DNA of 64,000 bases, taken from the NCBI GenBank assembly GCA_022360095.1, contig JAKSDK010000356.1, positions 1 to 64,000 on the forward strand, in the 5' to 3' direction. The translations under genes and the position numbers were made by a program. Origin of the DNA: Phycisphaerales bacterium (GTDB lineage Bacteria; Planctomycetota; Phycisphaerae; UBA1845; UTPLA1). The notes below the pieces were generated by a model that saw only the letters and a program-made list of their open reading frames with translations, made no database searches and was not told the origin of the DNA. Below are positions 19,497-38,129 of the stretch, one piece after another; position 1 is the stretch's first letter, and every line of letters begins with the position of its first letter.

Positions 19497-21902
19497 TCAA
19501 TCAGAAGCGCGCCGACGGCGCTCGATCGCCTCGAAGAGCCGCTTTTCGCCTGCTTGCGTAACTTTGGTCCCGACCACGTACAGGCCTTTGAGCTCCGTGC
19601 AGGCCTCAAGATGGGCCAGCCCCGCGTCGGTGATCTGCGTATTCCTCAGATCGAGCGTTTGCAGCGCGGTGAGCTTTTCGAGGTGGATCAGTCCCCGGTC
19701 GGTGATCTGCGTATTTCTCAGGGAGAGCGATTGCAGTGCGGTGAGTTTTTGGAGATAGGCCAGCCCCGCGCCGGTGATCCGTGTCCTCCTCAGGTCGAGC
19801 TTTTGCAGTGCGGTGAGTTTTTGGAGATGGGCCAGCCCCGCGTCTGTGATCTGCGTGCCTTCCAGGTATAGTTTTTGCAGTGCGGTGAGTTTTTGGAGGT
19901 GGGCCAGCCCCGCGTCTGTGATCCGCGTGTCGTCCAGGTAGAGCCTTTTCAGTACGGTGAGTTTTTGGAGATGGGCCAACCCTGCGTCGGTGATCTGCGT
20001 GCCTTCCAAGTCCAGCATTTGCAGTGTGGTGAGTTTTTCCAGGTGGGCCAACTCGGCGTTTTTGATCTGAGCCCCATTCAGGTTGAGTGCTTGCAGCGCG
20101 GTGAGGGCCGACAGCGGCTTCAGGTTGCGTAAGTCGGTGAAAGCTAAACCCAACTCGCGAACCTGTGGCAGGTCCTCAGGTTGAAGCGAGGCGACAGGTT
20201 TGTCCAGTTGACGTGCGATTGCGCTGAGCAGGGTCGGCGTCATATCCGCCATGGGGTGCGCCGCTTCCCGCACGGCTTCACGGGCATCGCCTTCAGATTG
20301 GGGGCGGGATACGGCTTTTGCCGCTTGCGGACGGCGTTCCTCCTTACCAGAACTGTCGATGACCGCGGCAGCGGCGACGTCCGGAGAGAATGGAATCGCT
20401 AACAGATCCCACAAGTGCGGCTGGTCGAACAGCGGAATCGGTTCCCCGCTGTCGCGGTAACGCGGAAGTGACACCTTGAGCATTTCGTAGTCCTGGTCGT
20501 CTGACGACGACTGCTCCCGCTTATCGGAAGTGTGTTCCGCGGTTTCGTCTTCCGCCCGACGACCGGGCCTTCGGAAATCCGGATGCGCCGCAATGAACTG
20601 TGACCAACGTTCGAAGAAGGCCAATGCCTCGCCCTCGCGGAGCAACGTGGCCGACTTGGGCACGTACTTTCGCAGCACGCGCTGCATCAGGTACACCTGA
20701 CAGCCCTGTGTGAAACGCAGAGCCTCATTGCCGCCCAGTTCGTCATGGCGGGCCGCCGCCGTTGCGCGCAAGAGTGTGCTGTTTAGCAGCCGCTTGACCT
20801 CGCGGGGATTGTCTTCGGCCAGCCTGCCAATCTTCTCCTCAATAACCTCCTTGTAACGCTTATTCGAGCCGGTGAGATTGTCCGACCAATATTCGTCGGC
20901 AACTTTGTTCATGATGGCGATCTGGTGTTCGAGGTAGCCTTCCATCTGCTTCTGACTGGGCGGGATGTCGACTTCAACCTGGAACATTTTGTCCAGGTAG
21001 TGCTCCGGTTTGGCTTCGCCCAGTCCTTTGTCGTCGTAGTGATGCCTGACGACCGCGTCTACGACTTCGCGATCCAGCCCAACGACGAAGATCAATTGTG
21101 GGATGTTTAGATAAAGCTTGAGGGCTTCGAGCACTTCCAGTACGACTTCCGGCAGACAACGATCGAGGTCATCAATGAAAATGACCATACGCTCGTCATT
21201 GGCGAGCGAGGCCCTGACCCACTCTCGCAGCGCGGTCTCGAACTCGTTGAGAAAGGCCTTTTCAGGGTGAGACGTCTGGCGGTAGTCCTCGGCGATCTTC
21301 GACAATGCGTCGAGATCGACTTTTGCTTCACCACTGATTTTCTGGCCGGTGGCACCAGCCTCAGCCCCGACCTTCAATTCGGTGCTGGCAAGAATGTTGA
21401 GAAACGACCGTCCGAGGAAGAGGCCGAACTTCCGGGCCGCGCTGACCACGGTGTGCAGCGAGGCCCCGCGTACGTCGATGGCTTTGAGGATGACCTCGGC
21501 GATGAGCCCGCGCCAGACGTCTTCGCGCTTGGTGTACTTCCACGGGTCGAACCAGACCGTCCGCGTGCGGCAATGGTCCTTGCGCCTGGTCTTGCTGAGC
21601 TGGCTCCATTCACCCAGACGATCGCTCAGCCAGCGCATAGCGGAGCTTTTGCCCGTGCCCCAGTCGCCGTAGACGGCCACCGCCAACGGGGGCCGGGTGT
21701 TTTTGTGGCGGATGATGTCGTACACCGCGCCGAGACGGGAATTCAGCATAAAGGAGTCCGTCTCGCGCATTTCGATTTTTTCATCTTCGCGCAGGATCGG
21801 GTGATCCGACAGAATCGTCATGCGCGGCGGCTTGAGCGTTGGGTTTTCGTTGGGCTCGGCCATGCCTCTCTCGCTCCGGACCTGCATGACAGAATAAGGC
21901 AT
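19497..21902 (-). CDS. KAP family P-loop NTPase fused to leucine-rich repeats
   Basis: 801 residues from the longest frame; an ATG at 21863 (MAEPNENP) is an equally good start. The KAP core has Walker A GDWGTGKSS (79-87), the FDPWKY motif (118-123) and Walker B VIFIDDLDRC (240-249). Most KAP proteins carry membrane helices inserted between the Walker motifs; I see none here, so this one may be soluble. A ~100-residue polar linker leads to about eight 24-residue LRRs (LDLEGTQITDAGLAHLQKLT type, residues ~600-790). KAP NTPases include the phage-exclusion protein PifA. A P-loop NTPase with C-terminal LRRs has the form of an NLR-like sensor. The defence role is inference. Confidence 0.85.
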   Translation of the reverse strand: MPYSVMQVRSERGMAEPNENPTLKPPRMTILSDHPILREDEKIEMRETDSFMLNSRLGAVYDIIRHKNTRPPLAVAVYGDWGTGKSSAMRWLSDRLGEWSQLSKTRRKDHCRTRTVWFDPWKYTKREDVWRGLIAEVILKAIDVRGASLHTVVSAARKFGLFLGRSFLNILASTELKVGAEAGATGQKISGEAKVDLDALSKIAEDYRQTSHPEKAFLNEFETALREWVRASLANDERMVIFIDDLDRCLPEVVLEVLEALKLYLNIPQLIFVVGLDREVVDAVVRHHYDDKGLGEAKPEHYLDKMFQVEVDIPPSQKQMEGYLEHQIAIMNKVADEYWSDNLTGSNKRYKEVIEEKIGRLAEDNPREVKRLLNSTLLRATAAARHDELGGNEALRFTQGCQVYLMQRVLRKYVPKSATLLREGEALAFFERWSQFIAAHPDFRRPGRRAEDETAEHTSDKREQSSSDDQDYEMLKVSLPRYRDSGEPIPLFDQPHLWDLLAIPFSPDVAAAAVIDSSGKEERRPQAAKAVSRPQSEGDAREAVREAAHPMADMTPTLLSAIARQLDKPVASLQPEDLPQVRELGLAFTDLRNLKPLSALTALQALNLNGAQIKNAELAHLEKLTTLQMLDLEGTQITDAGLAHLQKLTVLKRLYLDDTRITDAGLAHLQKLTALQKLYLEGTQITDAGLAHLQKLTALQKLDLRRTRITGAGLAYLQKLTALQSLSLRNTQITDRGLIHLEKLTALQTLDLRNTQITDAGLAHLEACTELKGLYVVGTKVTQAGEKRLFEAIERRRRASD

Positions 21903-22108: not shown

Positions 22109-23497
22109 TCAAGGCAGGCCGGAGATCAGGGCGTTGACAAACATCTGAATGTCACGGGCGTCTAACGAGTGATCCCCATTCGTGTCGGCGGCGCAGCGTT
22201 CCAAGGAGGAGGCCGTGTCGGGATCGATGAGGACGCCGACAAACGGCAGGACGTCCAGCTCGTTCAGAATGGTGTCGTTGTTCATGTCGCCGAGTTTGAT
22301 CAGCGTCGGCGTGAAGATCTCGACGGCATTCGAGGGGAACGCCATGTTCAAAAAGGGAACGCCGCCATCGATGAGCAGAATACGGTCATCGGGCAAAAGC
22401 ACCGCGGCGAAGTCGTCGTGGGGGTGGTTCATCGTAGTGACGAAGGGCCAATCCCCGGTCGCTCCATCGTAAACAGCGGCGTAGTCCAGCTCGGTATCGA
22501 CGCCGGAGACCTGCTGTTCGCCGCCGAAGATGATGGCGAAACGGTCGAGCGCGACGATCTGGTGGTCGGAGATGCCGTTGGCAAGGCCCGGTGGGGGGGC
22601 CGTCGGTGTGATGATGTCGGTCACCGGATCATAGCGGTAGGACAGATCGACGGTGTCGCCGTTGGTAATGTGTTGACCGGCGACAATCAGGACCGTGCCG
22701 TCGTTTAACAACGTCGCCGCCAAATCGTCCACGCCGATGGTCAGCGTGGCGGACAGAAGTGTACTCATGGTGGCGTCGGGGTTAAGCAATTCGAGTGTCG
22801 TCGACCCGTTTCCGTTTCCGGCGATGAGAAGGACGCGATGCAGGCCGGGACCGTCATGGTCCGGCAGCGCGACCGCGGCATGGGCCGCACGTGTCCGTTG
22901 CAGCGCGAAGCTCACGGACCAGGTGTCCGTCGTGGGGTCGAAGATTTGCCACGTGCCGCCCCCCGCGACGACGACGCGGCCGTCCGGAAGAAGCGAGGCC
23001 GTGTGGTCGGTTCTCTGCGTAGACATGGCCGGGCCGGCCTGGATCGTCCCTGTGAGCGGATCGAAGATTTCCACCGAGTTGATCGGCGTCCCGGGGTTGG
23101 TTCCCGTGGCGTTGGTTCGGCCGCCCGTGATCAGGACGCGGCCGTCTTGCAGGGTGGTTTGGGTATGGCTGCTGCGTGCGACGGACAGAGAAGGCGTCAC
23201 CATCGGTCCGCCGCCGGTGGGTTGGAAAGAGGCCGAAAACGAATTCGCGACGGGATCGAAAAAAGACAAATCGCTCAGCGAAACCAAGGTGGCCGGGATG
23301 AGGTTGATTCGCATGCCGCCCGACACCATGACCTGACCGTTTTGCAGCAGGCTGGCACGGTGAAAAAAACGGTTGGCCGTGTCGTTGCCGGTGTCCGAAA
23401 ATGTTCCGCCGATGACGTCACCGCCGACGAGTCCGCAGCCGACGGTCATCACGGTGATGCAGGTCAGGCAGGTTGAAAGGATCACGCGCGGCTTCAA
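22109..23497 (-). CDS. Kelch / beta-propeller lipoprotein with dockerin-like C-terminus
   Basis: 462 residues. I start at TTG 23497, where ACGGAGGG stands 5-6 bp upstream and the product begins with a clean lipoprotein signal (MKPRVILSTC ... VMTVGC); the frame runs on to 23548 without a site. Residues ~45-400 are kelch-type blades, with repeated units such as QTTLQDGRVLITGG, TASLLPDGRVVVAGG and DDRILLIDGG, implying a six- or seven-bladed propeller. The last ~60 residues hold two EF-hand-like loops (GDMNNDTILNELDV and DTNGDHSLDARDI), a dockerin type I pattern. Probably a surface-exposed binding protein. Ligand unknown. Confidence 0.75.
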   Translation of the reverse strand: MKPRVILSTCLTCITVMTVGCGLVGGDVIGGTFSDTGNDTANRFFHRASLLQNGQVMVSGGMRINLIPATLVSLSDLSFFDPVANSFSASFQPTGGGPMVTPSLSVARSSHTQTTLQDGRVLITGGRTNATGTNPGTPINSVEIFDPLTGTIQAGPAMSTQRTDHTASLLPDGRVVVAGGGTWQIFDPTTDTWSVSFALQRTRAAHAAVALPDHDGPGLHRVLLIAGNGNGSTTLELLNPDATMSTLLSATLTIGVDDLAATLLNDGTVLIVAGQHITNGDTVDLSYRYDPVTDIITPTAPPPGLANGISDHQIVALDRFAIIFGGEQQVSGVDTELDYAAVYDGATGDWPFVTTMNHPHDDFAAVLLPDDRILLIDGGVPFLNMAFPSNAVEIFTPTLIKLGDMNNDTILNELDVLPFVGVLIDPDTASSLERCAADTNGDHSLDARDIQMFVNALISGLP

Positions 23498-23634
23498 GTT
23501 CGCCCTCCGTCTTCCATTTATCTTATCAACGAACTTCGTGATCGACAATTTGGCCTGTCCGGTCCTGTTACTTTCTTGTGGTGAATGACCTCATGTCCTA
23601 ACATGGAAACGGTCGAGCGAACAGGAGGTCGTTG

Positions 23635-26600
23635 GTGGGAAAAGGACCGTGGTGTTTTCCGGTGCTGTTGTTTTTGACCGCCGGTCTTTCCCTTGCCCAA
23701 TCGACACGCCCACCCGTCACGGCGGCGTCGGCGACCGGCGCCAAGCAAGTTGAAGACCTCCTGGAAAAGGCTGATCCGGAGGCGGATGACTGGACGACGG
23801 AGGTTCAAGCGCATCGAGCGGACGTTCAGCTGAAGGCGTTGTCCAAGGTGCTGGTCCAGCAGCGCGAGGCGTTGACCGATCGGCTCAGCTCCTTCTTTAC
23901 CGATGACTGCCGGATGACGCATCTGCGGCCCGAAAAAATGACGACTCGGACCGTCGGCCGGGTTCGCGTTCGAAGGGTTGAAGAGGACGGTTTTTCCAGC
24001 CTTTCGAAAACGGATGCCACGTCGGCGTTTTCGAGTTTGCTGGCACCGCATCACAAGACCGCCGCGATGCGAGTCAAGTTCAAGACCGTCAGTGTCGAGC
24101 CATCCAGTGCATCCGAATTCAATACGATCGTCTTCTTTCAGGCCTTTTCGGAGGGAGCCGGTACGCGGGTGCAACAGAATGCAACCTGGTCGATCGAGTG
24201 GGTCAAAAAGCCCGAGACCGAGCGTCCCCTGATCAAGGCCCTGACTCCACTCCGATTCGACGAGACCGAGTGTTCCAAGCCGATGTTCGACGACTGCACC
24301 CGATCCGTCATTACGAATCAGGAGACGTGGTTTCCCCAACTCGCCCTTGGCAGTGAATATTGGTACGGCCGGATCGACGCGGTGGGGGAGATCAATTTCA
24401 TGGGACAGAACGGGATCGCCGTCGGGGACGTCAACGGTGACGGGTTGGACGACCTCTACGTGGGGCTGGGAACCGGGCTGCCGAACAAACTTTTCATTCA
24501 GAACCCGGACGGGTCCGTGCGGGATACCGCCCATGACGCCGGTGTCGCGTGGCTGGACGATACCAAAGGCGTCCTGCTCGTCGACATGAATAACGACGGT
24601 GATCAAGACCTTGTCTGTGCGATGGGGCATACGATCGTCTATTGCGAGAACGACGGGACCGGACGATTCAGACCGCGTCATGGGCTGAAGGCGGGTACGC
24701 CTGCGTCGTTTTACTCGCTGGCGGCTGCGGATTACGACGCGGACGGGGACCTTGACCTCTATGCATGCCGTTACGTCAAGGTGCGCTACGGCATCAGTGT
24801 GCCGATCCCTTTTTATGATGCAAACAACGGCCCCACGAACGTGCTGATCCGAAACGAAGGCAATCGCGGACTCAAAGATGCGACGCGCGACGCCGGGTTG
24901 CACGTGAACAACGCGCGATTCAGCCTTGCGGCGACGTGGCTCGATTATGACAACGACGGCGATCCGGACTTGTATGTGGCCAACGACTTCGGACGAAACA
25001 ATCTGTATCGCAACGACGGCGGTAAGTTTAAGGATGTCGCGGCCGAGACCGGGAGCGAGGATCAGGCGGCAGGCATGGGAATCAGTTGGGCCGATTACGA
25101 CCTCGACGGCGATTTCGATCTTTACGTCACCAACATGTTTTCCTCGGCGGGACGGCGCATCGCTTACCAATCACGGTTCATGCCCGAAGCGACGTTGAAG
25201 GACCGAGGCGGCGCGCAGCGGCACAGCCTGGGCAACACCCTGCTGGCCAACCAGGGTGACGGAACGTTTCGTGACGAGTCAGAGGCGGCCGGCGTGCGGA
25301 TGGGGCGCTGGGCCTGGGGCGCGATGTTCGTCGATTTCAACAACGACGGTTATGACGACCTGATGGTCCCGAACGGCTTCATCACCAATGAACACAAGGA
25401 TGATTTGTGAAGTTTCTTCTGGCGTCGCGTTGCGTCGCAATCACCGGTGGCCGATACCCGAGAAACGGCGAAGCAGCAGACCAGAGACTACGTAAAAGGC
25501 TGGGCGGCGATGACGGCGCTCATGCATCAAGGCAAGTCCTGGAGTGGGAACGAACGGAACTGCAGCTACCTCAATCTGGCCGATGGGAGTTTCGTCGATG
25601 TTTCCTCCTTGGGTGGATTGGATTTTCCGGACGACGGCCGCTCACTCGCCGTGAGTGATTGGGATGGTGACGGTGACCTCGATGTCTGGCTAAAAAACCG
25701 AACGGGGCCTCAGCTCCGATTTTTGCGCAATAATCAACAGACGGATCATCGCTTCATCGCGCTAAAGCTGAAAGGCAAGACATGCAATCGGGACGCCGTC
25801 GGCGCCAAGGTCACGGTAGAGGCCGGGGGGCGTACGATGACGCGTACACTCCTCGCCGGTGAAGGATATCTGGCGCAATCAAGCAAATGGCTGCATTTCG
25901 GCCTCGGCGAGGCCGACGCTGTGAGTCGAGTTGAGATTACCTGGCCTGACGGGGCGCGGCAGGAACTCGGGGCGCTGGTAGTCAATCGGCGTTATCACGT
26001 GGAACAGTATGGCCGGGCTGTCTCGGTCCCGAACAATCGTTCAATGGCTTCGCCCATTAAACCGGCCGATGTGCCGGATCACGACGGCGCGGCGCGCATT
26101 GTCTTGAAAGTGCCTCTGCCCATGCCTCCTGACATTCGGAGGGTCCTTGGCGATCGGAACGACGGTTCGGTCAAGCTTCTAAACCTTTGGGCCCACTGGT
26201 GCCGTCCTTGTCGTGAAGAATTGAGTTTGTTGATGGAGCGCCAAGCGGAGCTTACCAAGGCAGGGCTCGAAGTCATCGCCCTGAACCTGGACAAACCGGA
26301 GGATCAAAAGAACGCAAAGACATGGTTTCAGAAAACATTGGGCTCACCGTCGGCGACGACACGATTCACGTTGGCGGTTCCGGAAGCCGGTTTTGTGGAA
26401 TCGCTCGATTCCATTTTCCACCACGTCCGCGACAAAGAGGGCAACTGGTCACTGCCGACGAGTTTCTTGATTGATCCTCAAGGGGGCCTGCAGATTATCT
26501 ATCTTGGACCCGTTTCCGTCGATCGACTTTTGACGGATGCCCAAAGCTACGGCCGCAATGCGATTCGCGCGCATCTTCGGGGACCGTACCCGGGCCGCTG

Positions 26601-26730
26601 GTATTTTCGCATGCTTCGTAATTTGCCCGATCTGGCGTCGGATCTGGCGGCAAGGGGACGTAAGCAGGACGCCGCATTTTATGAGCGTCTAAGTCCTCCG
26701 GCCGCAAACGACACGAACCGACGACGGTAG
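23635..26730 (+). CDS. FG-GAP / ASPIC-UnbV / thioredoxin-like exported protein with in-frame UGA (candidate selenoprotein)
   Basis: 1031 codons from GTG 23635, with AGGAGG 6 bp upstream. Residues 1-22 are a signal peptide. Residues ~250-590 hold FG-GAP/VCBS repeats with Asp-rich calcium loops (DVNGDGLDD, DMNNDGDQD, DYDADGDLD, DYDNDGDPD, DYDLDGDFD, DFNNDGYDD). Codon 592 is TGA (25408-25410). The frame continues at once with SFFWRRVASQSP, more family sequence, an ASPIC/UnbV domain (~700-780) and a TlpA-like redoxin domain with WCRPC (Cys856, Cys859). TGA is used as a normal stop elsewhere in the window. Either UGA is read as selenocysteine or the gene carries a recent nonsense mutation; a frameshift is ruled out because both halves share one frame. 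Confidence 0.8.
25422..25438 (+). promoter_or_regulatory. bSECIS-like hairpin after the in-frame UGA
   Basis: GCG-U-CGC, loop GUU, GCG-U-CGC: two 3-bp stems separated by a U-U mismatch. The stem starts 12 nt after the UGA and the loop 19 nt after it, the same offsets as in E. coli fdhF as I recall that element, which also has an unpaired U in this place and a G-starting loop. An alternative 5-bp stem with loop GUC overlaps it. Confidence 0.4.
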
Positions 26731-26850: not shown

Positions 26851-27828
26851 TTAACGTTCAGGCGAAAGAACATCAAAGTTGGCCACGTCATCCAGATTGC
26901 CGTAGATGCCGTCCTTACCGGCGCTCAGGATGATAAACCGATCGGACTTGACGGGGCGTGCTCTTTGAATGTTCAGTGAGCCCGTGGTGTAGGTCGTGGC
27001 TCGGAAGGAGCGAATGAACTCGGCGAAGTCGTTGGGGAGCACCGAGATGCCCATGCCGGCAGCGTCCATCATTCCATCGGGCGCGTCCGCGATTTTATGC
27101 GGTGAGTTTGTATAACTCGTGAAGAGCTGATTGTCCTGGCCGTCGAAGACACCGTCGCCGAATGCCGTCCCGGCCTGGGTTTGGATGATCGGAGTGTTCT
27201 GGTTGGCGGTCAGCGAGGCGCGATAGTAGAGAATGGGCCAGCCGAACTCGTCACGGAAGACGCGGCACAGCAAACCGTCAATCGTGGGTTGCACAATCGC
27301 GGGGTCTGGATATTGGCCGTCTCCATCTTCGGGCGGATCGTTTTCCGAGGTGACGCCGATGCCGTCCGGCGGGATGTAGGGCTGTCGTCGTTCGTTTGCC
27401 GAATCCCAGCGGTTGTATGGCGTGGGGTTGTTTGCCTGGGGTCCGACCAGAGGAGCCCGTGGGTCGTAGCCCAGGAAATCTCGGCCGACCAGGGCGTCAA
27501 GCAAAATGTGTGCACCTTGCAGCAAATCTGAACCACCGAGAGTCCCGACTTCCCAGGCCGTCATTTGATCCGTGCGAAGGCCTAATGCGTCCGTAAAGTC
27601 ATCGGCCCACAGGACGGCGTTGGAGGCAGGATAGTCTGTCTCATCGACGATGAAGTTCTCCAAGCCGACTTCCATGGCGTTGATTTGAGCCCGGACGGCT
27701 GTTTTCTTGGCCTGGTTTCGGGCGCTCGACAGCGCAGGCGTGAGGATGCCGATCAGCAACACGATGATCGCCATGACGGTCAGCAGTTCGATGAGGGTGA
27801 ATCCATTTCGTTTCTTCGAGATAGACAT
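26851..27828 (-). CDS. Type II secretion pseudopilin, GspG-like
   Basis: 325 residues from ATG 27828 (GGAG 7 bp upstream); the longer frame is non-coding leader. The N-terminus MSISKKRNGFTLIELLTVMA is a prepilin leader with G/F cleavage and Glu+5, followed by a ~20-residue hydrophobic helix. The early core (NQAKKTAVRAQINAMEVGLENF) matches GspG-type major pseudopilins, which form the short periplasmic pseudopilus. The remaining ~230 residues are much longer than classic GspG (~140) and hold date- or table-like loops of no known fold. It lies 263 bp downstream of the giant K-like gene, at the end of the secretion cluster. Confidence 0.85.
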   Translation of the reverse strand: MSISKKRNGFTLIELLTVMAIIVLLIGILTPALSSARNQAKKTAVRAQINAMEVGLENFIVDETDYPASNAVLWADDFTDALGLRTDQMTAWEVGTLGGSDLLQGAHILLDALVGRDFLGYDPRAPLVGPQANNPTPYNRWDSANERRQPYIPPDGIGVTSENDPPEDGDGQYPDPAIVQPTIDGLLCRVFRDEFGWPILYYRASLTANQNTPIIQTQAGTAFGDGVFDGQDNQLFTSYTNSPHKIADAPDGMMDAAGMGISVLPNDFAEFIRSFRATTYTTGSLNIQRARPVKSDRFIILSAGKDGIYGNLDDVANFDVLSPER

Positions 27829-28091
27829 AACAATTCTCCAGGTAGGTCGTTTGTATTTCCAAAGATGGAAATACGGGGGGTTATTCAATTTCCGTATCAG
27901 CAACCTCCCCCGTCCTTTGTTTGCTGGCAAGAGGGCATCTGCCTTCCGGTCGGCTCTCACTTCATCATAGCCCTAACCAGGTGTCCAGTAAAGCCTTGTC
28001 GACGCTAGGGCAGGGGGCGGCATGGTCCGTATTTCCCTCGAATCGGCCCGTTCGGCCTCATTCTCGTCGCGTGATTGAGAGATACAGGGGG

Positions 28092-31000
28092 TTATTTTGT
28101 GTCGTCCAGATAACTGCCGTCCGAGCGAGCCAGGATTCGAGGGAGGATCTTCACACGAAAACCCCCCGGACCGGCGGGGGCTTCCTGGAAACAAACGCTC
28201 CGGTCCAAGGTTACCTGGCTACGCTGAACGTAGTTACCGTCCTCGTCAATCAAGGCGATGTAAGCGGTGAAGCAATCGGAACGCGTCGTGTAAATATTCG
28301 TCCAGCGAGAGAGATACGTGTCACGGCCGCGGATGCCGCCGGCTTCAAGCGGATCCCCCACGGAGTCGGGAGGCGACAGAATCGGCACATAATCGGCGGT
28401 CTCGCTGTCGCGGCGATACCGGAAGTCCGGCGAGAAGAAATCGCCGCCGTCGTCACCGGGTGAGAATTCGGGCCCAAGCGCAGGTTCGTCGGCTCTGAAT
28501 TTGTGATAGGGCAAACGCAGCGTATTCTCCGCCCAGAAACGATCGACCTGAAACAGATGGTTTCTCGGCGCAAACGGATCCAGGTTGTCAATAATGGCTC
28601 TGTCGGCTCGCAGACCGGCCAATTCGATGACCTGGGCAAATGCGCCGCGCTGCATGACTGACGGACCTTGGCCAAGCCCGCGTTCGGCCAGGGCGACGAT
28701 CTGCGGAACACCGTCCGCATCGGGCAATCGCAACGGGACGGAACGGTTCTCACGAGCGGCGACGATGGCTGTCGGGAAATCCCAATAAAGCGGATTGTTC
28801 TCGTTATTGAACGTCTGCGCGGGGTTTTGGAGTATGCTCGGATCGGCGAGGACCTGCTCCGGCGACGTCGGGAGGTAAGACATGAACGGCCCGCTTCGAA
28901 GAACGGAGGCCGGCGCGGTGTTCAAGTTGACCCGGCCGGCGAGGCGGAACAGAACATCGTAGGCCTCGGTGGGATCGCTGAGGTCGGTGTTGCCGTCACC
29001 GTCATTGTCCACACTGTCGAACAGGTGCCCTTGGGTCGTGAGATAATCAAAGAGACGCCACGTCCAAGGCGGTTCCGAGGTTTTGTGCTCGAAATCCAGG
29101 CGGCCCGCGGCGACGCGCTCGATTTTGCGCTGGGGCAGGAGACCATTCGGAATGGTCGTCTCTTCGATTGTCCTGGCGAGCAGGTACGTCACAGGCAAAA
29201 CACGGTTCGGATCTTCTGCAGCGTCAAAAAGTGAGAGTGAGAACTGATTGAGCCTGGGGCCGAGCATGTACAAGCGACTGAGATCGGCGACGGAGTCAAA
29301 AGCTTCGAAAGGCTGGCCCGATTCGAAACCGTTCACCAGATCCACACCGCCGTTGCCGTCCGGCCGGACGAACCGCGGTTCGCCGCCGGGTTCGGTCAGC
29401 GACGTGAGGGTGGGCCAGATCGACTCCGGAATATTGTCATTCAGGTTGCTGAGAACGTCATTGGGTTTTCCGAGAGATTCATCATAGTTTCCGAATTCGG
29501 CGTTGTTGGGGGAGGGCACTTCGGTTTGGCCGTACGTGTGCCAACCGGTTGTGAAACGCCACCCCTTGGTGCTTCGTCGCAAAGAGAAAAAGTGCCTGTT
29601 CTGCTCGGCCAATTGATTGATACCTTGTCCGCGCGTGGCCCAAACGTTCCGGCCCGTGTCCGCGCCGGTGATCACGTCACCGGAGTGCTCAGGGCCGATG
29701 ACATCGAGCACATGATTGCGAGGATCAACCAGGTCGCCCGTGGGTGAATAGACAAGCTCCAGGCGGCCGTTGCCGTCGGTGGCGATTCTCAGAGGAGTCG
29801 CCGTGCTTCCATTCGTGTATGCACGTGCCTCGAATTGCGCCAGGTCATTGAGCGTGGGTTCGTGGATGCGCGACCCGCAGAAGACGAAATAATTTCCATG
29901 CCGGTCAGGTGTGATGTCATTGACCGCACCACCGTCGAGCATTTGTGTCTGCTGGATGGATGGGGCGGAGCCGACCGGGACAAAGTCGTTGAGCGGAATC
30001 CAAAGCGGGCCGCCGCTTGCATCGGCGCCGGGCGCGTGGAAATAAAGATTGTCGGTGGAGACCGACCAACCGGGTGGCACAAAAAGCTCGAATGCGAAAT
30101 ACCATTTGTCGCTCTGATTGTTGTTAGGGGCCGGAACCTCGTTTTCCTTCAGGAAGGCAAAAGCCTCGGTGAAGAACGGCTGTTTCTCGATGCCGTAAAC
30201 ATACTGGCCGGGCAGCCCGGGAACCTCGAGAATCGTGGGGACGCCGTCGGAGTCGCGATAATCCACGAGATTGACGGCGAACTGCCAGGCGAGATAAAGA
30301 CGATTGAGCGAAGCGTTCGAAGCCAACGAATCGGACAACGGCATGATCTGATAGCGATCGACGCCATCGAGTGCCAGATACATGGCCGCGGCCATGTAAC
30401 GGAGAAAGTCGCCCTTGGCATCGAGAGGATCATCGACCGAGCCCATGTTGATGTCGATCGGGTGGACGCGGGCCCAGTCCGGCGGGAGACGGCCGTCCGG
30501 AACCGTGAGCTGATCCACCAGCGAGCAAGATGTACAAACACCGACGAGATCCTGTGGGCGATTCGGATCGGTGAGCAGCGGCGACGACGCGGGAATGAGG
30601 ACCGGCCAGTTCATGCCCAGGTTCCAGAGTTGGAGCAGGCGGTCGTCGACCGTGGCGGCGGGCGCGGGCGACGCGACCGAAGCGATATCCGGGGGAGGCG
30701 CGACGTCGACATTGACGGTGGTCAACATCGGACGCTTCACGGCCAGCGACTGGTCTTCATCCAGAAGTTGACGCCAACCCGCATTGCTGCCGACGGAGTA
30801 GCCTTCGTACGTCGTCACAGAACCCGTCGGCTGATAATTTGCATTCAAACGGTTCCAACGAGCATCGCGATTGACCGGGATGTTATAGTGAAACGCATTG
30901 GTGTCCGTGTCGAATAAAACGTTGCGGGACCAGAGCATCGTGCCGGGCAGGGCGACGTCAATGGTGCGGTAGTCGTTGGCTGCCCGGTTGTCGGCTCTGC

Positions 31001-32402
31001 GGTCGTATCTTACGAGCATGTTTCGGTGGCGAAGAGAAGCCTCTTCCGTCAGACCGTAAAGATTGTATCGCTGCGAAAAATCAGGCAAGCCCCCAAGCAA
31101 AACCCGTCGGACGACGTCAAAGTCGTGGCGGACCGGATCAGGATTCGGGATGACGTTGTTCGAGCGGTAGTCCGCGAGGTTGGCGGTTCGAGCGGTGCTG
31201 AACCAGTCTTGACGGTGAACAACGTTTTCCAGAAGAAACTCCGTTGTGCTGCGCCCACGACGCTGAAGACCCGGCGTTGCCTCATCAAATGTGAGATCAC
31301 CGCCCGGCAAGGTAAAGGCCGATGCCGTGTTGACATTCAACATCCCGGCATGGTCCACGATCCGAATGGCGGCGTAGAGACGGCGGGGACGATTGGGATC
31401 GGGGCTGTCAAGTTCAATGGGAAAACTGATCGGCGAATCCGGACAACCGTCGCCGTCAGCATCGTAGAGATCCACCTCGCCATCGAGGTTGGTGTCGAAG
31501 TAGGGAAACTGCGGGATAAGACCGACCAGCGTGGGGTCCGAGGAGAGTTGAATGCCCAATTGCGCTTGATGGCCGGGGCCGTTCCAAAGCTCACGGGCCG
31601 CCCGGATGGTGACGTTTGTCGTCGAGCCTGGGATCAGTTCGCCGGAAAAGAGAGGCGGCGGCGTCTGTAGAATTTTAATGTCGGTCAGCTTGGAGGGTCC
31701 GTAACGCACCAGGGTGTTGATCGCCGGCGTGAAGTCCCGTGAATTCCCGGCCCACATGAAGGGATTCACCGCTTGTGTGACGCCGGCGGTCGGAGTGAAC
31801 GACAGGGGCTTGCTGATATCCGTGCCAAGGTAAGACACATATTGCCAGGCGAGGACGTTGTCCTCGACGGTCGGTGTGGGGCTCAGAGGATCAATGACCG
31901 TCGGCACCTGGTCCGAACAGACCACGATATTAATCCCGTCCGTTTCGCAAAAGAAATGGGGCATGCTCGAAGCCAGCCAGCGATCAACGTTCGGGTGGTC
32001 GAACGGTTCATTGTTTTCGCGAAGATCGAGCGGGTTGAGCAAATTGCCGAAAAAGTCACGAGATTCGCTCGAAAGCGCACCGGATAACGGCCTGCTCGAA
32101 TCGACACTCGGATCGCTTGGCGAGGCGGCCCAGATGTCGTCGTACAGAACATCAAGAACGATTCGAATGGCGCCGTCCATAACCACCTGATTGGAGGTCG
32201 AGGCGGATTGGAGGTTCACCCGCTTGAACTCGCCGTGCGTCTTGGCGATCAACGCCAAACCGACCAAACCGATCAGTGCAAGAACGCCCAGGACGAAGAC
32301 CATGACCGTGCCTCGACGGCGGCGGTCGTGGCGAACTTGCATGCCCGTGATGCGCCGGGGCAGGCCGTCCATCGAAGAAGTATCTTGTTGGCTGCGTTGC
32401 AT
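28092..32402 (-). CDS. Giant GspK/PilX-like secretion protein
   Basis: 1436 residues, against ~320 for ordinary GspK. Residues ~30-52 (RRRGTVMVFVLGVLALIGLV) form the N-terminal membrane helix after a basic leader, with no clean prepilin cleavage site. Two NTA-type helix-hairpin-helix motifs typical of GspK are present (LNVNTASAF and GRVNLNTAPASVL). Between them are long insertions rich in Pro, Asn and Asp, including DNDGDGNTDLSDP-type loops. GspK caps the pseudopilus tip with H, I and J, all encoded just upstream. The start is uncertain; ATG at 32372 or 32342 would also fit. Confidence 0.75.
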   Translation of the reverse strand: MQRSQQDTSSMDGLPRRITGMQVRHDRRRRGTVMVFVLGVLALIGLVGLALIAKTHGEFKRVNLQSASTSNQVVMDGAIRIVLDVLYDDIWAASPSDPSVDSSRPLSGALSSESRDFFGNLLNPLDLRENNEPFDHPNVDRWLASSMPHFFCETDGINIVVCSDQVPTVIDPLSPTPTVEDNVLAWQYVSYLGTDISKPLSFTPTAGVTQAVNPFMWAGNSRDFTPAINTLVRYGPSKLTDIKILQTPPPLFSGELIPGSTTNVTIRAARELWNGPGHQAQLGIQLSSDPTLVGLIPQFPYFDTNLDGEVDLYDADGDGCPDSPISFPIELDSPDPNRPRRLYAAIRIVDHAGMLNVNTASAFTLPGGDLTFDEATPGLQRRGRSTTEFLLENVVHRQDWFSTARTANLADYRSNNVIPNPDPVRHDFDVVRRVLLGGLPDFSQRYNLYGLTEEASLRHRNMLVRYDRRADNRAANDYRTIDVALPGTMLWSRNVLFDTDTNAFHYNIPVNRDARWNRLNANYQPTGSVTTYEGYSVGSNAGWRQLLDEDQSLAVKRPMLTTVNVDVAPPPDIASVASPAPAATVDDRLLQLWNLGMNWPVLIPASSPLLTDPNRPQDLVGVCTSCSLVDQLTVPDGRLPPDWARVHPIDINMGSVDDPLDAKGDFLRYMAAAMYLALDGVDRYQIMPLSDSLASNASLNRLYLAWQFAVNLVDYRDSDGVPTILEVPGLPGQYVYGIEKQPFFTEAFAFLKENEVPAPNNNQSDKWYFAFELFVPPGWSVSTDNLYFHAPGADASGGPLWIPLNDFVPVGSAPSIQQTQMLDGGAVNDITPDRHGNYFVFCGSRIHEPTLNDLAQFEARAYTNGSTATPLRIATDGNGRLELVYSPTGDLVDPRNHVLDVIGPEHSGDVITGADTGRNVWATRGQGINQLAEQNRHFFSLRRSTKGWRFTTGWHTYGQTEVPSPNNAEFGNYDESLGKPNDVLSNLNDNIPESIWPTLTSLTEPGGEPRFVRPDGNGGVDLVNGFESGQPFEAFDSVADLSRLYMLGPRLNQFSLSLFDAAEDPNRVLPVTYLLARTIEETTIPNGLLPQRKIERVAAGRLDFEHKTSEPPWTWRLFDYLTTQGHLFDSVDNDGDGNTDLSDPTEAYDVLFRLAGRVNLNTAPASVLRSGPFMSYLPTSPEQVLADPSILQNPAQTFNNENNPLYWDFPTAIVAARENRSVPLRLPDADGVPQIVALAERGLGQGPSVMQRGAFAQVIELAGLRADRAIIDNLDPFAPRNHLFQVDRFWAENTLRLPYHKFRADEPALGPEFSPGDDGGDFFSPDFRYRRDSETADYVPILSPPDSVGDPLEAGGIRGRDTYLSRWTNIYTTRSDCFTAYIALIDEDGNYVQRSQVTLDRSVCFQEAPAGPGGFRVKILPRILARSDGSYLDDTK

Positions 32403-32465
32403 CGAGCGTTATCTCCAGGTGTCATGGTAGGGTGACACCAAAAGTCCGGCACAAGGCCGTGGGAT

Positions 32466-33917
32466 CTAGGGCACGGCCACGACAATCGAGAACTGCCGGC
32501 CAAACTGAGTGACCAGCACCGGGTCGTCGTTCCCGTCCGGGTCCACGTCAGCGTCTTCATCCAGGTCGATCTCCGCGGAGTTTTTGAGGCGATTGCCTGA
32601 ATCGTAAATCCGATAGGTGAATCGCAACGCCTTGGGGCGATGCTGCCATGTATCAGCTCGCCAGATTGCGCGGTAATGCGTGCTTGCATCAGGGCCGACC
32701 ACGTTGGACCATTCGATCTTGTCACGAAACGTGTCAATTTCGGCCTGCGTGCTGTCCGCGAAAGAACCGTTGCCATAGTCGATTACGTCCTGACGCCGAC
32801 GGGCAATGTAGGGAAGTTGACTGCTGTTGTTGCCGACGTTGTGGACGTCGTCGAGGAAGTTTCCGTCAACGTCGAAAGCGGGGTCCGGCCGCAGGCCGAA
32901 CCAACGCGTGCGAATATCTCCGTCGGGAGTCGTCGGATCGAGGTCGGGGCCGAGCGGATCGATACGGCGGCCGTCGGTCCATTCGATTTGAAAGTCGGCC
33001 AGATGCGGAATGAAATTCGAACCGCTTCGATTGTAGAAATCAGCATTGTTCGCGTTCAACGAGGCCGTGCGCGGGGCGATGCTCGGCTGCCAGAGCGAAG
33101 CGATGGACGGGTTCGCCGGATCGTCCGTGAGAGACTGTTCAAGAATGATCTGGCCGATGGTCTGGGCGTTGGCGAGACGAACGCTGCCGGGCGGCGAATA
33201 AATGACATCCATCTTGCCTTCGAAAAAGTTGGTGTCCAACGTACCGCTTGTGTCGTTGAGCATTCTGCCGGGGTTCGTCAATTCATCCACGGTGGGCGGA
33301 AGCCAGCTGGCATCCGGAGGAGAAGCCAGGTCCAACGTCAGCAGGATCGAGCGATGGACGAAAACCCATTCCGAGGCGGTCAACGAAACGCTCAACGGGT
33401 CCATATCGTCGTTCAAAACCTGCGCACGTGGAGGTGAGGATTTTTTGGAAAGCGGTATTCCGGGACCGAAATAGACCAGCGCCTCAGAACTACTCGTCGG
33501 GCCACGGGTGAACTGCACCGGATCGCCTCGAACGGGATCGGTGAACGACTGGTATTCATCGACGTCACCCTGAGTCAAAAAAACGAGACGATCATGACGG
33601 AGCCGCTTGAATCTCGGCCCGCCGGGGGCTTCCTGTCGCGCCCTGGTCGGGGCGGGAGAATCAATGACTAACAGGTAGGGCGCGATTTTCTGCATTTGGT
33701 CGGACAGGGTTGCGCCCAGGGCCCCGGACGAGGCGATGACATCGGCATTGGCGGCGGCACGGGCCGCGGCATCCGATGAGATCCTGAAAATCTGAGAAAT
33801 CGTCACGATCACCACCACCAACAAACCGACTGAAACAAGAAGCTCGACCAGCGTGAAGGCGTTGTGACGCAGGTCTCCGATCCGAGATCGTCTCTTTTTT
33901 TGCGGCCACCGCCTCAT
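32466..33917 (-). CDS. Pseudopilin, GspJ/PilW-like
   Basis: 483 residues. The ATG at 33917 overlaps the upstream stop as ATGA. The leader MRRWPQKKRRSRIGDLRHNA is followed by FTLVELLVSVGLLVVVIV, a type IV prepilin helix with Glu+5. The next segment (SQIFRISSDAAARAAANAD) resembles the GspJ/PilW minor pseudopilins. The body is long for the family, with aromatic and Pro-rich loops. Minor pseudopilin J joins I and K at the pseudopilus tip. Part of the minus-strand operon. Confidence 0.8.
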   Translation of the reverse strand: MRRWPQKKRRSRIGDLRHNAFTLVELLVSVGLLVVVIVTISQIFRISSDAAARAAANADVIASSGALGATLSDQMQKIAPYLLVIDSPAPTRARQEAPGGPRFKRLRHDRLVFLTQGDVDEYQSFTDPVRGDPVQFTRGPTSSSEALVYFGPGIPLSKKSSPPRAQVLNDDMDPLSVSLTASEWVFVHRSILLTLDLASPPDASWLPPTVDELTNPGRMLNDTSGTLDTNFFEGKMDVIYSPPGSVRLANAQTIGQIILEQSLTDDPANPSIASLWQPSIAPRTASLNANNADFYNRSGSNFIPHLADFQIEWTDGRRIDPLGPDLDPTTPDGDIRTRWFGLRPDPAFDVDGNFLDDVHNVGNNSSQLPYIARRRQDVIDYGNGSFADSTQAEIDTFRDKIEWSNVVGPDASTHYRAIWRADTWQHRPKALRFTYRIYDSGNRLKNSAEIDLDEDADVDPDGNDDPVLVTQFGRQFSIVVAVP

Positions 33918-34951
33918 AGGGACACCTTCCATTCGAGCAGGGGCGAATCCGTCGAGTTCCTGGGAGGTGGGAACAGCCAGACATCAAAGCCGAAATTGTT
34001 GTCGCCCGTATCGGCGGGATCATTCGTCCCAATCTCGAAGAGGTCTTCCAGAACCTGGACGCCGACGACGCCGTTGTTGTCTTCGATCGGATAAGCCACG
34101 GTCAGAATGCGCCCGGCCGGCACGGTCGGAAGCGGAGCGGCGTCGGCACATGTGTGCCCGTGGATCATGATTTTCGAACCGGGCGGCGCCAACCGGGGAA
34201 GCATCGAACTGAGGCCCGGAATGTAAAGGGCGTTCGCATATGGCGCGGCGCTGAATCGGGCGACGGTGACACGCCAGGGAATCGGAAAACGCTGCGGTTC
34301 GGAAATCAATGGTGTCGGATTAAGCGTCGGAAACTGGACGGTGAGATCCTGCTTGAAGTAACTTTGATTGCGTCGCTGTTTGCAGACCGCCGCCGTAAAG
34401 CTTTTGGAACCGTTGGCCAACTGGCGATAGAAACCATACCAGATCAACCGGTTTGGAGCCTCTTGAGCACGTCTGTCGTTGAAGGGCGCGATCCGATCGC
34501 TGAGGACGTCGGTGCCGAAAAGTTGAAGTTCAGAGAAGGAACCGATCGGTAACGAAGCTGCGGGACGGCCGTTGACCAGCGCGACGTAACGCGTCAGATC
34601 GACCCAAGTGCCTCCGACTTCAAGGTTGGCAAAGGGCATCAGATGCCAGTGCGAATCATTGCCGGAGACCAGAAAACTCTGGTCAAACCAGAGTCGGTTC
34701 GTATCGAGCCGATTGTGAAGCATGGCCTTGGACCGGGAGACCATGTCCAGAGCCTGTGCCCGATCGGCGCTCTCTCGATGTTGTGCCAGCGCGACGGGGA
34801 AGATCGCCGCGATCATGATCAGACCGATTCCAAGAATGCTGACGGCGATTCCCGTTTCCAGCAACGAGACGGCACGTCGGAGATGACCGATTTGCGCGCG
34901 CGCCTTCCGGGGAAGCGAAAGCGGGGTGAACTGGAATCGTACGCGTGTCAC
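33914..34951 (-). CDS. Pseudopilin, GspI/PilV-like
   Basis: 345 residues. I choose GTG 34951, one base after the upstream stop, with GGGAG about 9 bp before it; a longer frame would overlap that gene by 90 bp. The prepilin segment RRAVSLLETGIAVSILGIGL has Glu at the +5-type position, then IMIAAIFPVALAQHRESADR, as in GspI/PilV. Minor pseudopilin I starts tip assembly. Between the H-like and J-like genes, the usual order of H-I-J-K operons. Confidence 0.75.
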   Translation of the reverse strand: MTRVRFQFTPLSLPRKARAQIGHLRRAVSLLETGIAVSILGIGLIMIAAIFPVALAQHRESADRAQALDMVSRSKAMLHNRLDTNRLWFDQSFLVSGNDSHWHLMPFANLEVGGTWVDLTRYVALVNGRPAASLPIGSFSELQLFGTDVLSDRIAPFNDRRAQEAPNRLIWYGFYRQLANGSKSFTAAVCKQRRNQSYFKQDLTVQFPTLNPTPLISEPQRFPIPWRVTVARFSAAPYANALYIPGLSSMLPRLAPPGSKIMIHGHTCADAAPLPTVPAGRILTVAYPIEDNNGVVGVQVLEDLFEIGTNDPADTGDNNFGFDVWLFPPPRNSTDSPLLEWKVSL

Positions 34952-34952
34952 G

Positions 34953-35870
34953 TCAAGGAGCTCCCGCAAGTTTTTGGCCGGAGAAGCGGTCCAGGACCAC
35001 CGTGTCGGCGAATTGAACAAATCGACCACTGGGGCGCGTTTCAAACAGCCAGTTGTTCACCAGGTTGGCTGCCGTCGGCACGGAACCGACCGCGGCATCC
35101 ATTTTCGTCTTGTCGGAGATGATAAATCCACGCGTTGAGGTAATGGCGGTGTCGCTACTCGTCACCAGCGCTCCGCTTTTGAGCAGCGCCATGTCCGGGG
35201 ACTCATCATCCAGACGGTTACGCTCGTTGACCGGTCGAAGCAGGCCATTGCGAAAGCGGTAGGATCGAGTGGCGATGCGACGTGTACGTGTGACCAGTTT
35301 GCCGTTTTCATCGAAGCAAAACGCCGCCCAGATCAGATTGTCGAGATTGGAATCGCCGGGACTCGTGGACCGGACCGGCGTGTTGTCGCTATCGACATCC
35401 GCATAATCAATCGGATGCACGGCAACGATCGGATCACCATCGTTGTCGATCGGAAGCGCCGCCGAACCGTCCAGCACCGGCGCGTGGACATAACCGTCGG
35501 ACAGATCCGGATTCGAGCCGTCGTTGTCGGAGTAGGGGTCCCAAAGGCCGCCGTGTTTGGGAGGATTCAGGTGCCAGATTTCGAACCTGCCGTTATAGGG
35601 ATTGACGACGAGCATGGTTTCGATGTGGTTGGCAACGGCATAGTTTCGGGCAATGTTGGAATACGTGACCACGGCGTTCTTTGCTTGCGCCAGAACACTG
35701 CTTTGTTGAAAGCCGCGAAAGGCGACCGTGCCGGCGGCGAGCAGGACCGCAGTGATCGATATGACCACCGCCCATTCGACAAGCGTGAAACCGCGAGTGC
35801 GACATCGGCCGGTCAAGGTTGTCCGCCGTCGCGGCGGGGCCTCATTGGGTTGTCCACGATATCGGGGCAT
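34953..35870 (-). CDS. Pseudopilin, GspH-like
   Basis: 305 residues from ATG 35870, with AGGAG 8 bp upstream. After a basic leader comes RGFTLVEWAVVISITAVLLA, a prepilin helix with G/F cleavage and Glu+5. The following FRGFQQSSVLAQAKNAVVTY fits GspH/FimT-type minor pseudopilins. The first of the H-I-J-K run, 11 bp after the gene before it. Confidence 0.8.
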   Translation of the reverse strand: MPRYRGQPNEAPPRRRTTLTGRCRTRGFTLVEWAVVISITAVLLAAGTVAFRGFQQSSVLAQAKNAVVTYSNIARNYAVANHIETMLVVNPYNGRFEIWHLNPPKHGGLWDPYSDNDGSNPDLSDGYVHAPVLDGSAALPIDNDGDPIVAVHPIDYADVDSDNTPVRSTSPGDSNLDNLIWAAFCFDENGKLVTRTRRIATRSYRFRNGLLRPVNERNRLDDESPDMALLKSGALVTSSDTAITSTRGFIISDKTKMDAAVGSVPTAANLVNNWLFETRPSGRFVQFADTVVLDRFSGQKLAGAP

Positions 35871-35881
35871 CCCTTTCACTC

Positions 35882-36799
35882 CTAGGGCAGCCTAATGATG
35901 TTGTCAGCCGCCGCCTCAATCTCCTGGGCAGACGGATTGACTCTCCAAACGTTGCCGAACCGTTTGTCAGGTCCGGCCGACTCCAGAACATAACCGACCG
36001 CTTTCTTGAAAGTGTCAGGGTCGGCGTCATCTTGAAACATGGCGGAGTTTTGAACGCCTCCCGCTCCCGAGCCGGGGAGAAACGCGCCATAATCCACCGG
36101 TAAATAGCCTTTGTAAGCTCGCTGGCTAAGATTGGTTTCGGCATCCCGGAAAACCCAAAAATAGCGATAGGGCGTTCCCCACGCATCGACCAGAACCAAC
36201 GCACGCTGCGCCCGGTTTGCAGAAAGACCGCCAAGTGGGGCCGGCAGAAGCGGATCAGCCACCGACGTGACCTCGGTAATCTCCTTCAAATACAGGCTGT
36301 CGTCGTCAATCGTGATAAACGGCCCTTTTCCCGATGACGAGGTGAGCGCATAGGCCAGACAGATATTGGCGCTGAGCACGTCACCAACCCTGATTTCGTC
36401 CTCGCCATTCTGCATGGTGAAAATACCGTTATTGGCGAAGAACAGGAAGTCGTCGTTGAAGGTCGCGATGGATTGGTAAGCATTGTCGTCAAACAGGCGT
36501 CCGGCAATATGGTCCGGCCAGCCGCGATCGGAAAGCGTCACGGCCACGGGGATCACACTGGAAGTGTCGACGACCTTCCACTGAGGCCAGAAGTCGGCGT
36601 AACGGTCGATGGCGGAGGCAATGGCAGCGATTTGCTGACGCGTAATGGACCTCGCCTGAGACGCTCTCAGTGCATTGATGCCGACAAGAACAAGACCCGC
36701 AACCACCGCCAGAATGACGATCGACACAAGCATCTCCACCAGCGTCAAGCCGCGGCGGTGGGAGAAAAAACTTCGAATTGGTTGAGACTCTCGCTGCAC
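35882..36799 (-). CDS. Prepilin-type pseudopilin, second G/H-like protein
   Basis: 305 residues from GTG 36799 (GAGG 6 bp upstream); a GTG at 36847 overlapping gspF is the alternative. The sequence HRRGLTLVEMLVSIVILAVV is a prepilin leader and helix with Glu+5. The next part (QITRQQIAAIASAIDRYADF-like) resembles the early helix of GspG. An extra pseudopilin directly behind gspF and ahead of H-I-J-K; which role it takes cannot be told from sequence alone. Confidence 0.75.
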   Translation of the reverse strand: MQRESQPIRSFFSHRRGLTLVEMLVSIVILAVVAGLVLVGINALRASQARSITRQQIAAIASAIDRYADFWPQWKVVDTSSVIPVAVTLSDRGWPDHIAGRLFDDNAYQSIATFNDDFLFFANNGIFTMQNGEDEIRVGDVLSANICLAYALTSSSGKGPFITIDDDSLYLKEITEVTSVADPLLPAPLGGLSANRAQRALVLVDAWGTPYRYFWVFRDAETNLSQRAYKGYLPVDYGAFLPGSGAGGVQNSAMFQDDADPDTFKKAVGYVLESAGPDKRFGNVWRVNPSAQEIEAAADNIIRLP

Positions 36800-36839
36800 T
36801 TCAAACCTCAATAACCGATGTCCCTGGTCGGACGGCCGA

Positions 36840-38129
36840 TTAAACACCGCCTCCGGACAAACTGTTGATCAGGCTGACCATCGGCAGGAACAACGCGATG
36901 ACGATGAAACCTACGATCACACCCAGGATGATGACCAGGACCGGCTCCAGCATGGCGACGAGACCGGCCACGAGCGTCTCGACCTCATCGTCATAATTGT
37001 CCGCGACTTTGGTTAACATCTTGTCGAGATCACCGGTTTCCTCGCCGACATCCACCATGTTCACAACAAGGTTGTCGACAACCTTGGTGGCTTTGAGCGG
37101 TGCAGCAAAGGATTCCCCTTCTCGAATGGAATCATGCACGCGACCCAGGGCACGGACATACACTTCGTTGCCCGATGTGTCCTTGGTGATCGTGATCGCC
37201 TCGAGGATCGGGACACCTGCCGAAATCAAGGTGCCGAGCGTCCGTGTGAAACGAGCGACAGCCGTCTTCATCAGAATGTTCCCCAGAATCGGAACTTTCA
37301 GCTTCACGGTGTCCAGGAAGAATCGGCCACCGTGAAACTGGCGAATCAGCTTCCAAATGACGAAAAAGAAAATCGGCGACCCCAAAAGGTAGATCCAGCC
37401 GGGAATCGCCATCGGGACTATGTTACCGGCGGCGTCACGCGACTGACCGATGACAAAATTGGAAAGGCTCAAAAGAAACATGGTCAGGCCGGGCAATTCC
37501 GTATCGAAGTCCTTAAAGATGGTTTCGAATTTAGGAACGACAAAGTACATGATGCCCGTGACAATCAACATGGCGAAAGTAATGACGGCAACCGGATAAA
37601 TCATGGCTCCGATGACCCGACGCTTGAGCTTTTGCGCCTTCTCCATGAAGTCGGCCAGTCGTTGGAGGATAACGTCCAACACACCGCCCGCTTCGCCGGC
37701 GGCAATCATGTTGCAGTAAAGTCGATTGAAAACCTTGGGATGATGGGTCATCGCTTCGGACAACGTGGCGCCGCCCTCGACATCTTCGGCCACGTTGCGC
37801 AAGGCAACACGGAGCGGGCCCGGCTTCTGCTGTTGTTCGAGAATTCGGAGCGACCGAAGAATGGGTAGCCCGGCATCCATGAGGGTCGAAAGTTGGCGGG
37901 TGAATTGAGTCAGTTGCTTGGTGGAAACACCACCGATCGAGCCGCCCTTTTTCTTTCCCGGTGCGCCGGGGGCAGCCGCCTTCTTGGCGCCGCCTTTCTG
38001 ACGGACCTTCGTGGGGAAATAGCCGAGGCTGCGAATCTTGGCAATCGCCTCTTCTGAGTTGGGGGCCTCAACCTCGTCTTTGACCTCTTGCCCGGAGGCA
38101 TCCATGGCTTCGTATTGAAACTTGGCCAT
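36840..38129 (-). CDS. gspF: Type II secretion inner-membrane protein GspF
   Basis: 429 residues from ATG 38129, with GGGAG upstream. N-terminal segment AKFQYEAMDASGQEVKDEVE, a ~20-residue Lys/Ala/Gly-rich linker (residues ~45-65, unusual), then two T2SSF domains (FTRQLSTLMDAGLPILRSLR and FTRTLGTLISAGVPILEAI) and three membrane spans. GspF is the polytopic platform protein that couples the GspE ATPase to pseudopilus growth. It heads the minus-strand cluster; no gspD, E, C, L or M is in the window. Confidence 0.93.
   Translation of the reverse strand: MAKFQYEAMDASGQEVKDEVEAPNSEEAIAKIRSLGYFPTKVRQKGGAKKAAAPGAPGKKKGGSIGGVSTKQLTQFTRQLSTLMDAGLPILRSLRILEQQQKPGPLRVALRNVAEDVEGGATLSEAMTHHPKVFNRLYCNMIAAGEAGGVLDVILQRLADFMEKAQKLKRRVIGAMIYPVAVITFAMLIVTGIMYFVVPKFETIFKDFDTELPGLTMFLLSLSNFVIGQSRDAAGNIVPMAIPGWIYLLGSPIFFFVIWKLIRQFHGGRFFLDTVKLKVPILGNILMKTAVARFTRTLGTLISAGVPILEAITITKDTSGNEVYVRALGRVHDSIREGESFAAPLKATKVVDNLVVNMVDVGEETGDLDKMLTKVADNYDDEVETLVAGLVAMLEPVLVIILGVIVGFIVIALFLPMVSLINSLSGGGV

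Follow-up and report, generated by a model that had tools for sequence, protein, structure and literature searches.

A predicted selenoprotein family with a CRTAC1-like propeller and a TlpA/ResA-like redoxin domain

The TGA codon at positions 25408–25410 (+ strand) of the 64-kb window (the whole stretch of DNA analysed here, which is part of an 8.5 Mb draft genome of 1918 contigs and 94% completeness) very probably encodes selenocysteine (Sec) in an exported protein, and comparison across homologs shows the UGA to be read through as part of one protein. This reading, which the initial annotation had also proposed, is supported by the sel genes of the genome, by TGA at the same codon in 119 genes, by a clade with Cys at the site, and by a covarying hairpin restricted to the TGA genes. 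We regard as evenly balanced the wider proposal that the gene belongs to an uncatalogued, phylum-wide and much-duplicated family whose Sec is carried by an exported CRTAC1-like propeller, rather than by a thioredoxin fold, with a thioredoxin-like domain of the same polypeptide serving it; the protein would then be a self-contained extracytoplasmic selenoenzyme of new architecture.

The gene, its product and the Sec machinery

The predicted selenoprotein gene is located at 23635–26730 (+) and ends with a TAG stop codon at 26728–26730. We favour the GTG at 23635 as the probable start over the also possible TTG at 23632 because a Shine-Dalgarno-like AGGAGG (23622–23627, +) lies some six bases before it, and from this GTG the TGA is codon 592 of 1031 (residue 593 if counted from TTG). 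The TGA is in frame between either start and the TAG, and both the frame and the start site confirm the position given to it in the initial annotation.

The product looks, by eye, to have an N-terminal signal peptide, which is followed by an N-terminal region, an FG-GAP (CRTAC1-like) beta-propeller, an UnbV/ASPIC domain and a TlpA/ResA-like redoxin domain. Pfam places FG-GAP repeats 5' of the TGA and, 3' of it, FG-GAP again, UnbV_ASPIC and an AhpC-TSA/redoxin match that includes WCRPC (PF13517 and PF07593 score 129 bits and 71.5 bits, respectively, in the gene product), and homologs align end to end with residues 11–1032. The CRPC (CxxC) at 26203–26214 (+), within WAHWCRPCREEL, is the redox motif noticed earlier in the C-terminal domain and is the proposed electron donor to Sec.

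The closest solved fold to the core formed by the FG-GAP propeller and UnbV/ASPIC (24412–26031, +) is that of CRTAC1 (PDB 9etn), which was matched with E 4e-27 by fold and a TM of 0.69–0.71 by a core model made from 22 sequences (pLDDT 82, pTM 0.87); a full-length model made from three sequences (pLDDT 40) was set aside. The Sec-site motif, PNGFITNEHKDDL-U-SFFWRRVA (25369–25434, +), is predicted to be an inserted helical segment on the propeller. Sec is placed there in the first turn of a short helix with low local model confidence (pLDDT ~47–60), and most distant CRTAC1-type relatives align with this segment as gaps. We treat this as a hint only that Sec heads a short helix inserted in the CRTAC1-like propeller, where, by analogy with thioredoxin-fold enzymes, the selenol would be acidified.

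The Sec machinery of the window's genome is complete. A check for sel genes, which had been suggested in the initial annotation, recovered selA (C1146:28642–29739, 451.9 bits), selB adjoining it (C1146:30080–31978, 336 bits with its neighbours in frame against a cut-off of 242), selD (G000:C196:212251–213174 (−), L018, 375.6 bits) and a tRNA-Sec with anticodon TCA on C1414 (70.6 bits). The selD gene itself carries an in-frame TGA, at a position which we take to be the Cys-or-Sec site of selenophosphate synthetases.

Residues at the Sec site and the C-terminal CxxC

Amongst the closest relatives, a family-level group of 17 genomes, TGA is found at the exact codon in 6/6 other close homologs, which have 48–55% identity and the motif DDL-U-SFFWRRVAS. 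We surveyed the site residue across 392 genomes of the phylum, paralogs included, and counted 119 genes with TGA at this codon, the window's gene being one of them. These genes come from 82 genomes that span 56 genera and 27 families, all of one phylum, and their protein identity to the query is as low as 27%. TAA or TAG was never found at the site column amongst the interrupted homologs of the survey. All of the TGA genomes tested have selA (42/42). Of the 38 genomes tested that have no TGA homolog, 16 have selA and 22 do not (Fisher p 8e-10). It should be noted that mostly the top ~two homologs per genome were examined, and the number of Sec paralogs is therefore a lower bound: four were confirmed in G336 and three in G322, among >100 FG-GAP/UnbV candidates, and the total per genome may be much larger than this. 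Further TGA matches in paralogs of G219, G336, G375, G061 and G322 were rejected as off-site and resembling terminal stops or other frames. Outside the phylum, a sparse sample included two homologs from Acidobacteria, in which the site residues are S and G; no relatives were found in viral contigs, and a plasmid search returned distant CRTAC1 proteins only.

Cys is found at the site in seven homologs which form one clade (support 100) and include L041, a paralog in the window's own genome. In G113 and G248, neither of which has a selA match, every homolog found has Cys (these genomes are 86% and 79% complete, respectively, which makes the absence of selA likely but not sure). The homolog alignment proposed in the initial annotation was in this respect in favour of Sec. 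The exact place of the Cys clade is unsure because it adjoins the most divergent Sec rows with long branches. The Asp two before Sec (Asp 591 in TTG numbering) is invariant in 117/117 TGA rows and in the Cys clade, and the three-state site label requires 9 changes on the tree compared to 24 when shuffled.

A further 18 homologs have neither Sec nor Cys at the site (A, E, S, N, D, G, Q or R) and, as their genomes mostly have selA, Sec would seem to be dispensable in some paralogs. The initial annotation had named a variable non-Cys residue as evidence that would count against Sec, and such residues do occur, but they fall on branches of their own, and among the 13 that retain a C-terminal domain 11 have no CxxC; for these reasons they look like paralogs that have lost a redox role, and not like evidence against Sec. 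We note that the paralogs with E, D, A, Q, N or R (L124, L130, L134–L136, L139, L140, L146, L147, L152, L169, L170 and L188) come from genomes mostly with selA and are nearly all without CxxC, and these have apparently lost the redox function and kept the fold.

Where a C-terminal domain is present, CxxC is found in 98/106 Sec proteins compared to 2/13 proteins with another residue at the site (p 5e-9), and in one of these two (L147) the CxxC is at a different place in the domain. When independent events are counted, the link is not significant, with 3–4 of 5 pairs in agreement and none in disagreement. This pattern suggests that Sec and CxxC work as one redox unit. Sec could act as a nucleophilic or redox group in an extracytoplasmic reaction, e.g. 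of the peroxidase, reductase or thiol-exchange type, and the fused TlpA-like CxxC domain would then re-reduce it, and we consider the chances of such a Sec–CxxC electron path to be about equal either way. No propeller Cys is conserved enough to be the Sec partner (C644 is found in 40%, and C379 is absent from the Cys clade).

Somewhat less probable, but still a serious contender, is a selenoprotein whose Sec is independent of the TlpA-like domain and either binds a metal or cofactor or is a nucleophile that relies on a separate reductase. Eleven complete Sec proteins, as well as all of the Cys proteins, have no C-terminal domain, and the chemistry cannot therefore depend on the fused donor; these eleven and the eight Sec proteins which have the domain without CxxC must be served by another reductant. 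In G001 and G002 the Sec gene also adjoins a di-haem oxidoreductase that is paired with, or fused to, an FG-GAP protein, which is again in favour of an independent Sec. However, the retention of CxxC in most Sec proteins and its loss in most cases together with Sec argue for a working link between the two, and the finding of no conserved gene neighbourhood around the Sec gene also counts against an independent Sec.

The hairpin after the UGA

The bacterial SECIS hairpin (25422–25438, +; GCG-U-CGC-GUU-GCG-U-CGC) begins 12 nt after the UGA and occupies nt 15–31 when the U of UGA is numbered 1, with the stem formed by +15..+21 and +25..+31, the loop GUU at +22..+24, and a U-U mismatch at +18/+28. 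The hairpin with a G-first loop at SECIS spacing described in the initial annotation is thus present, with the loop G at +22 by this numbering. Folding of the query region gave a divided result, as the hairpin forms (−6.8 kcal/mol) but on its own is no better than shuffles (z −0.12), and a single sequence could not therefore have revealed a SECIS; the 116 homologs do.

The stem common to the family pairs +15..+20 with +26..+31, and the loop GU is retained at +22 in 115/116 and at +23 in 114/116 homologs. The TGA genes keep 5.23 of the 6 pairs compared to 3.36 ± 0.10 after synonymous recoding of the same proteins, whereas 20 non-TGA homologs have 2.85 pairs compared to 2.60 ± 0.21 when recoded, despite much the same SFFWR context. 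When 64 sites were aligned without gaps, 94% of the cells were paired and 42 were compensatory (13.4 ± 2.6 in shuffles, with 0/500 as high), and pairing falls to 19% when the partner is shifted by one base; RNAalifold recovers the same helix unaided. Pair 18–28 is seen as GU, AU, CG, GC and UA, and as U-U once in the 64 aligned sites, in the window's gene. This mismatch had been likened to the unpaired U of fdhF, but as it is private to the query there is no shared equivalent in the family. Pair 20–26 alternates between GC and AU in step with the encoded residues (RRVA to RQVV/RHVV), and the R to Q/H and A to V changes go together such that the pair is kept. Codon choice follows the same pattern, with the serine at +28..+30 encoded by TCG in 66/68 TCN-using genes compared to 79/183 TCN serines elsewhere. 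On these comparisons, the hairpin after the UGA is a real bacterial SECIS which is selected at the RNA level and is found only in the TGA genes, the non-TGA homologs being without it.

The published bSECIS model has a loop of 3–9 nt with G in the first two positions located 16–37 nt after the UGA, a stem of at least 4 bp, and an energy of −7.5 kcal/mol or lower (PMC13188914). The family hairpin agrees with the loop, spacing and stem of this model, and the energy is reached by 67% of the homologs and 35% of the non-TGA controls, while the query hairpin, which is weaker than most, falls short of it. A minority of members (e.g. L187, L192, L194 and L196) have their best hairpin 3 nt farther downstream, and the shifted hairpins of divergent members have a longer, nearly perfect stem with the loop GUG, GGUC or GUGC. 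A comparison of energies with synonymous recoding over wide windows gave a weak signal (median z −1.2 and −0.3) because alternative folds dilute it, and the fixed-pair test was used instead. From what is known of such systems, SelB bound to the hairpin would deliver Sec-tRNA (anticodon UCA) to the UGA.

Programmed termination, in which translation mostly stops at the UGA to give a short FG-GAP protein and near-cognate tRNAs provide a low level of regulated readthrough, is very improbable as an alternative to Sec. UGA is leaky in general and the shortened product would retain part of the propeller, but termination here would remove the last propeller repeat together with the UnbV domain. The interruption is always TGA, all of the tested TGA genomes have selA with Cys used instead in the two selA-less genomes, and the downstream hairpin fits the spacing and loop of a bacterial SECIS (PMC13188914). 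A changed code in which TGA specifies Trp or Gly in this lineage is more improbable again and nothing was found in its favour, as 47 of the homologs with the internal TGA also end in a TGA stop and the internal TGA occurs at one site per gene beside a conserved hairpin, in line with the earlier view that the genetic code is unchanged. The same terminal stops, together with the conservation of the site, rule out a frameshift, which had already been excluded in the initial annotation. The idea of a pseudogene or of a sequencing or assembly error, in which a sense codon has been mutated or misread to TGA, draws on this being a single draft genome in many contigs and is barely credible given the same-codon TGA in 119 genes from 82 separately assembled genomes and a frame which is kept 3' of the TGA with 48–55% identity within the family.

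Relation to known systems and the surrounding genes

In its decoding the Sec gene resembles bacterial bSECIS selenoproteins of the E. coli fdhF type, with an in-frame UGA, an immediate hairpin at the usual distance having G in the first two loop positions, and SelA, SelB, SelD and tRNA-Sec present, though the family stem is short (6–7 bp) and lies inside the codons for WRRVAS/WRQVVS/WRHVVA. Unlike the known examples, the host protein is absent from the 2026 review of 119 prokaryotic selenoprotein families (PMC13188914), the table of which includes the families of Haft and colleagues and has no FG-GAP, UnbV/ASPIC, CRTAC1 or propeller entry. NCBIfam release 20 has no model for the family (seven diverse members were tested), which together with the catalogue bears out the earlier remark that no such selenoprotein family was known. 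Planctomycete selenoproteins have been reported (PMC4807772), and our literature text searches, which did not extend to the candidate table of that paper, found no report of an FG-GAP/UnbV selenoprotein family. Sec is inserted by an ordinary mechanism; what is new is the family, the Sec on a CRTAC1-like propeller and the abundance.

CRTAC1 (cartilage acidic protein 1) is the best match to the protein by both sequence and fold and has the same propeller-then-ASPIC order, but the sequence match leaves out the Sec-site segment and the C-terminal redoxin matches TlpA/ResA chains instead. This domain resembles TlpA/ResA thiol-disulfide oxidoreductases and has WCxxC, with scores well below the curated NCBIfam TlpA/ResA cut-offs (55 compared to 230 bits, and 39 compared to 170) that indicate domain homology only; it differs from them in being fused behind a Sec propeller, and in having CxxC rather than the UxxC or UGC of known Sec-containing TlpA-like proteins. 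A weak match to the ResA-like WAxxUGC selenoprotein NF041054 (E 2e-4, 20.5 bits compared to a cut-off of 300) is similarly limited to the redoxin domain, and whereas NF041054 has Sec in the thioredoxin motif, here it is in the propeller some 265 residues upstream.

The family is probably among the common selenoprotein families of its phylum, and the number of its Sec genes in a genome ranges from one to at least four. As ordinary gene calling splits the gene in two, it would be read as two broken proteins. For the large and functionally blank FG-GAP/UnbV (CRTAC1) group, the conserved Sec or Cys at one position provides a residue-level clue to chemistry, and since Sec, Cys and apparently inert paralogs (with both Sec and CxxC lost) already coexist, a direct test is possible.

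In G001 and G002 (L226:10015–15490 and L225:3543–8522), an FG-GAP gene and a di-haem oxidoreductase (DHOR/MauG-like) gene adjoin the Sec gene, the two being separate in one genome and fused in the other. A functional link with the Sec gene is possible; the pair was not seen in the window. Here the Sec gene has directly upstream and divergent from it a Kelch-repeat protein with a C-terminal dockerin domain (22109–23548, −). The window also has a KAP-family P-loop NTPase fused to leucine-rich repeats (19497–21902, −). A run of large genes at 26851–38132 (−), one of which encodes a pseudopilin-like protein with a methylation motif at its N-terminus, may be a type II secretion cluster. Other in-frame TGA codons with a long open frame on both sides are found at 62085 (+), 4105 (−), 29745 (+), 13321 (+) and 17306 (−), of which that at 62085 is likely to be an ordinary stop because the downstream ORF overlaps. 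The sole Rfam match in the window is a tRNA gene at 2038–2108 (−).
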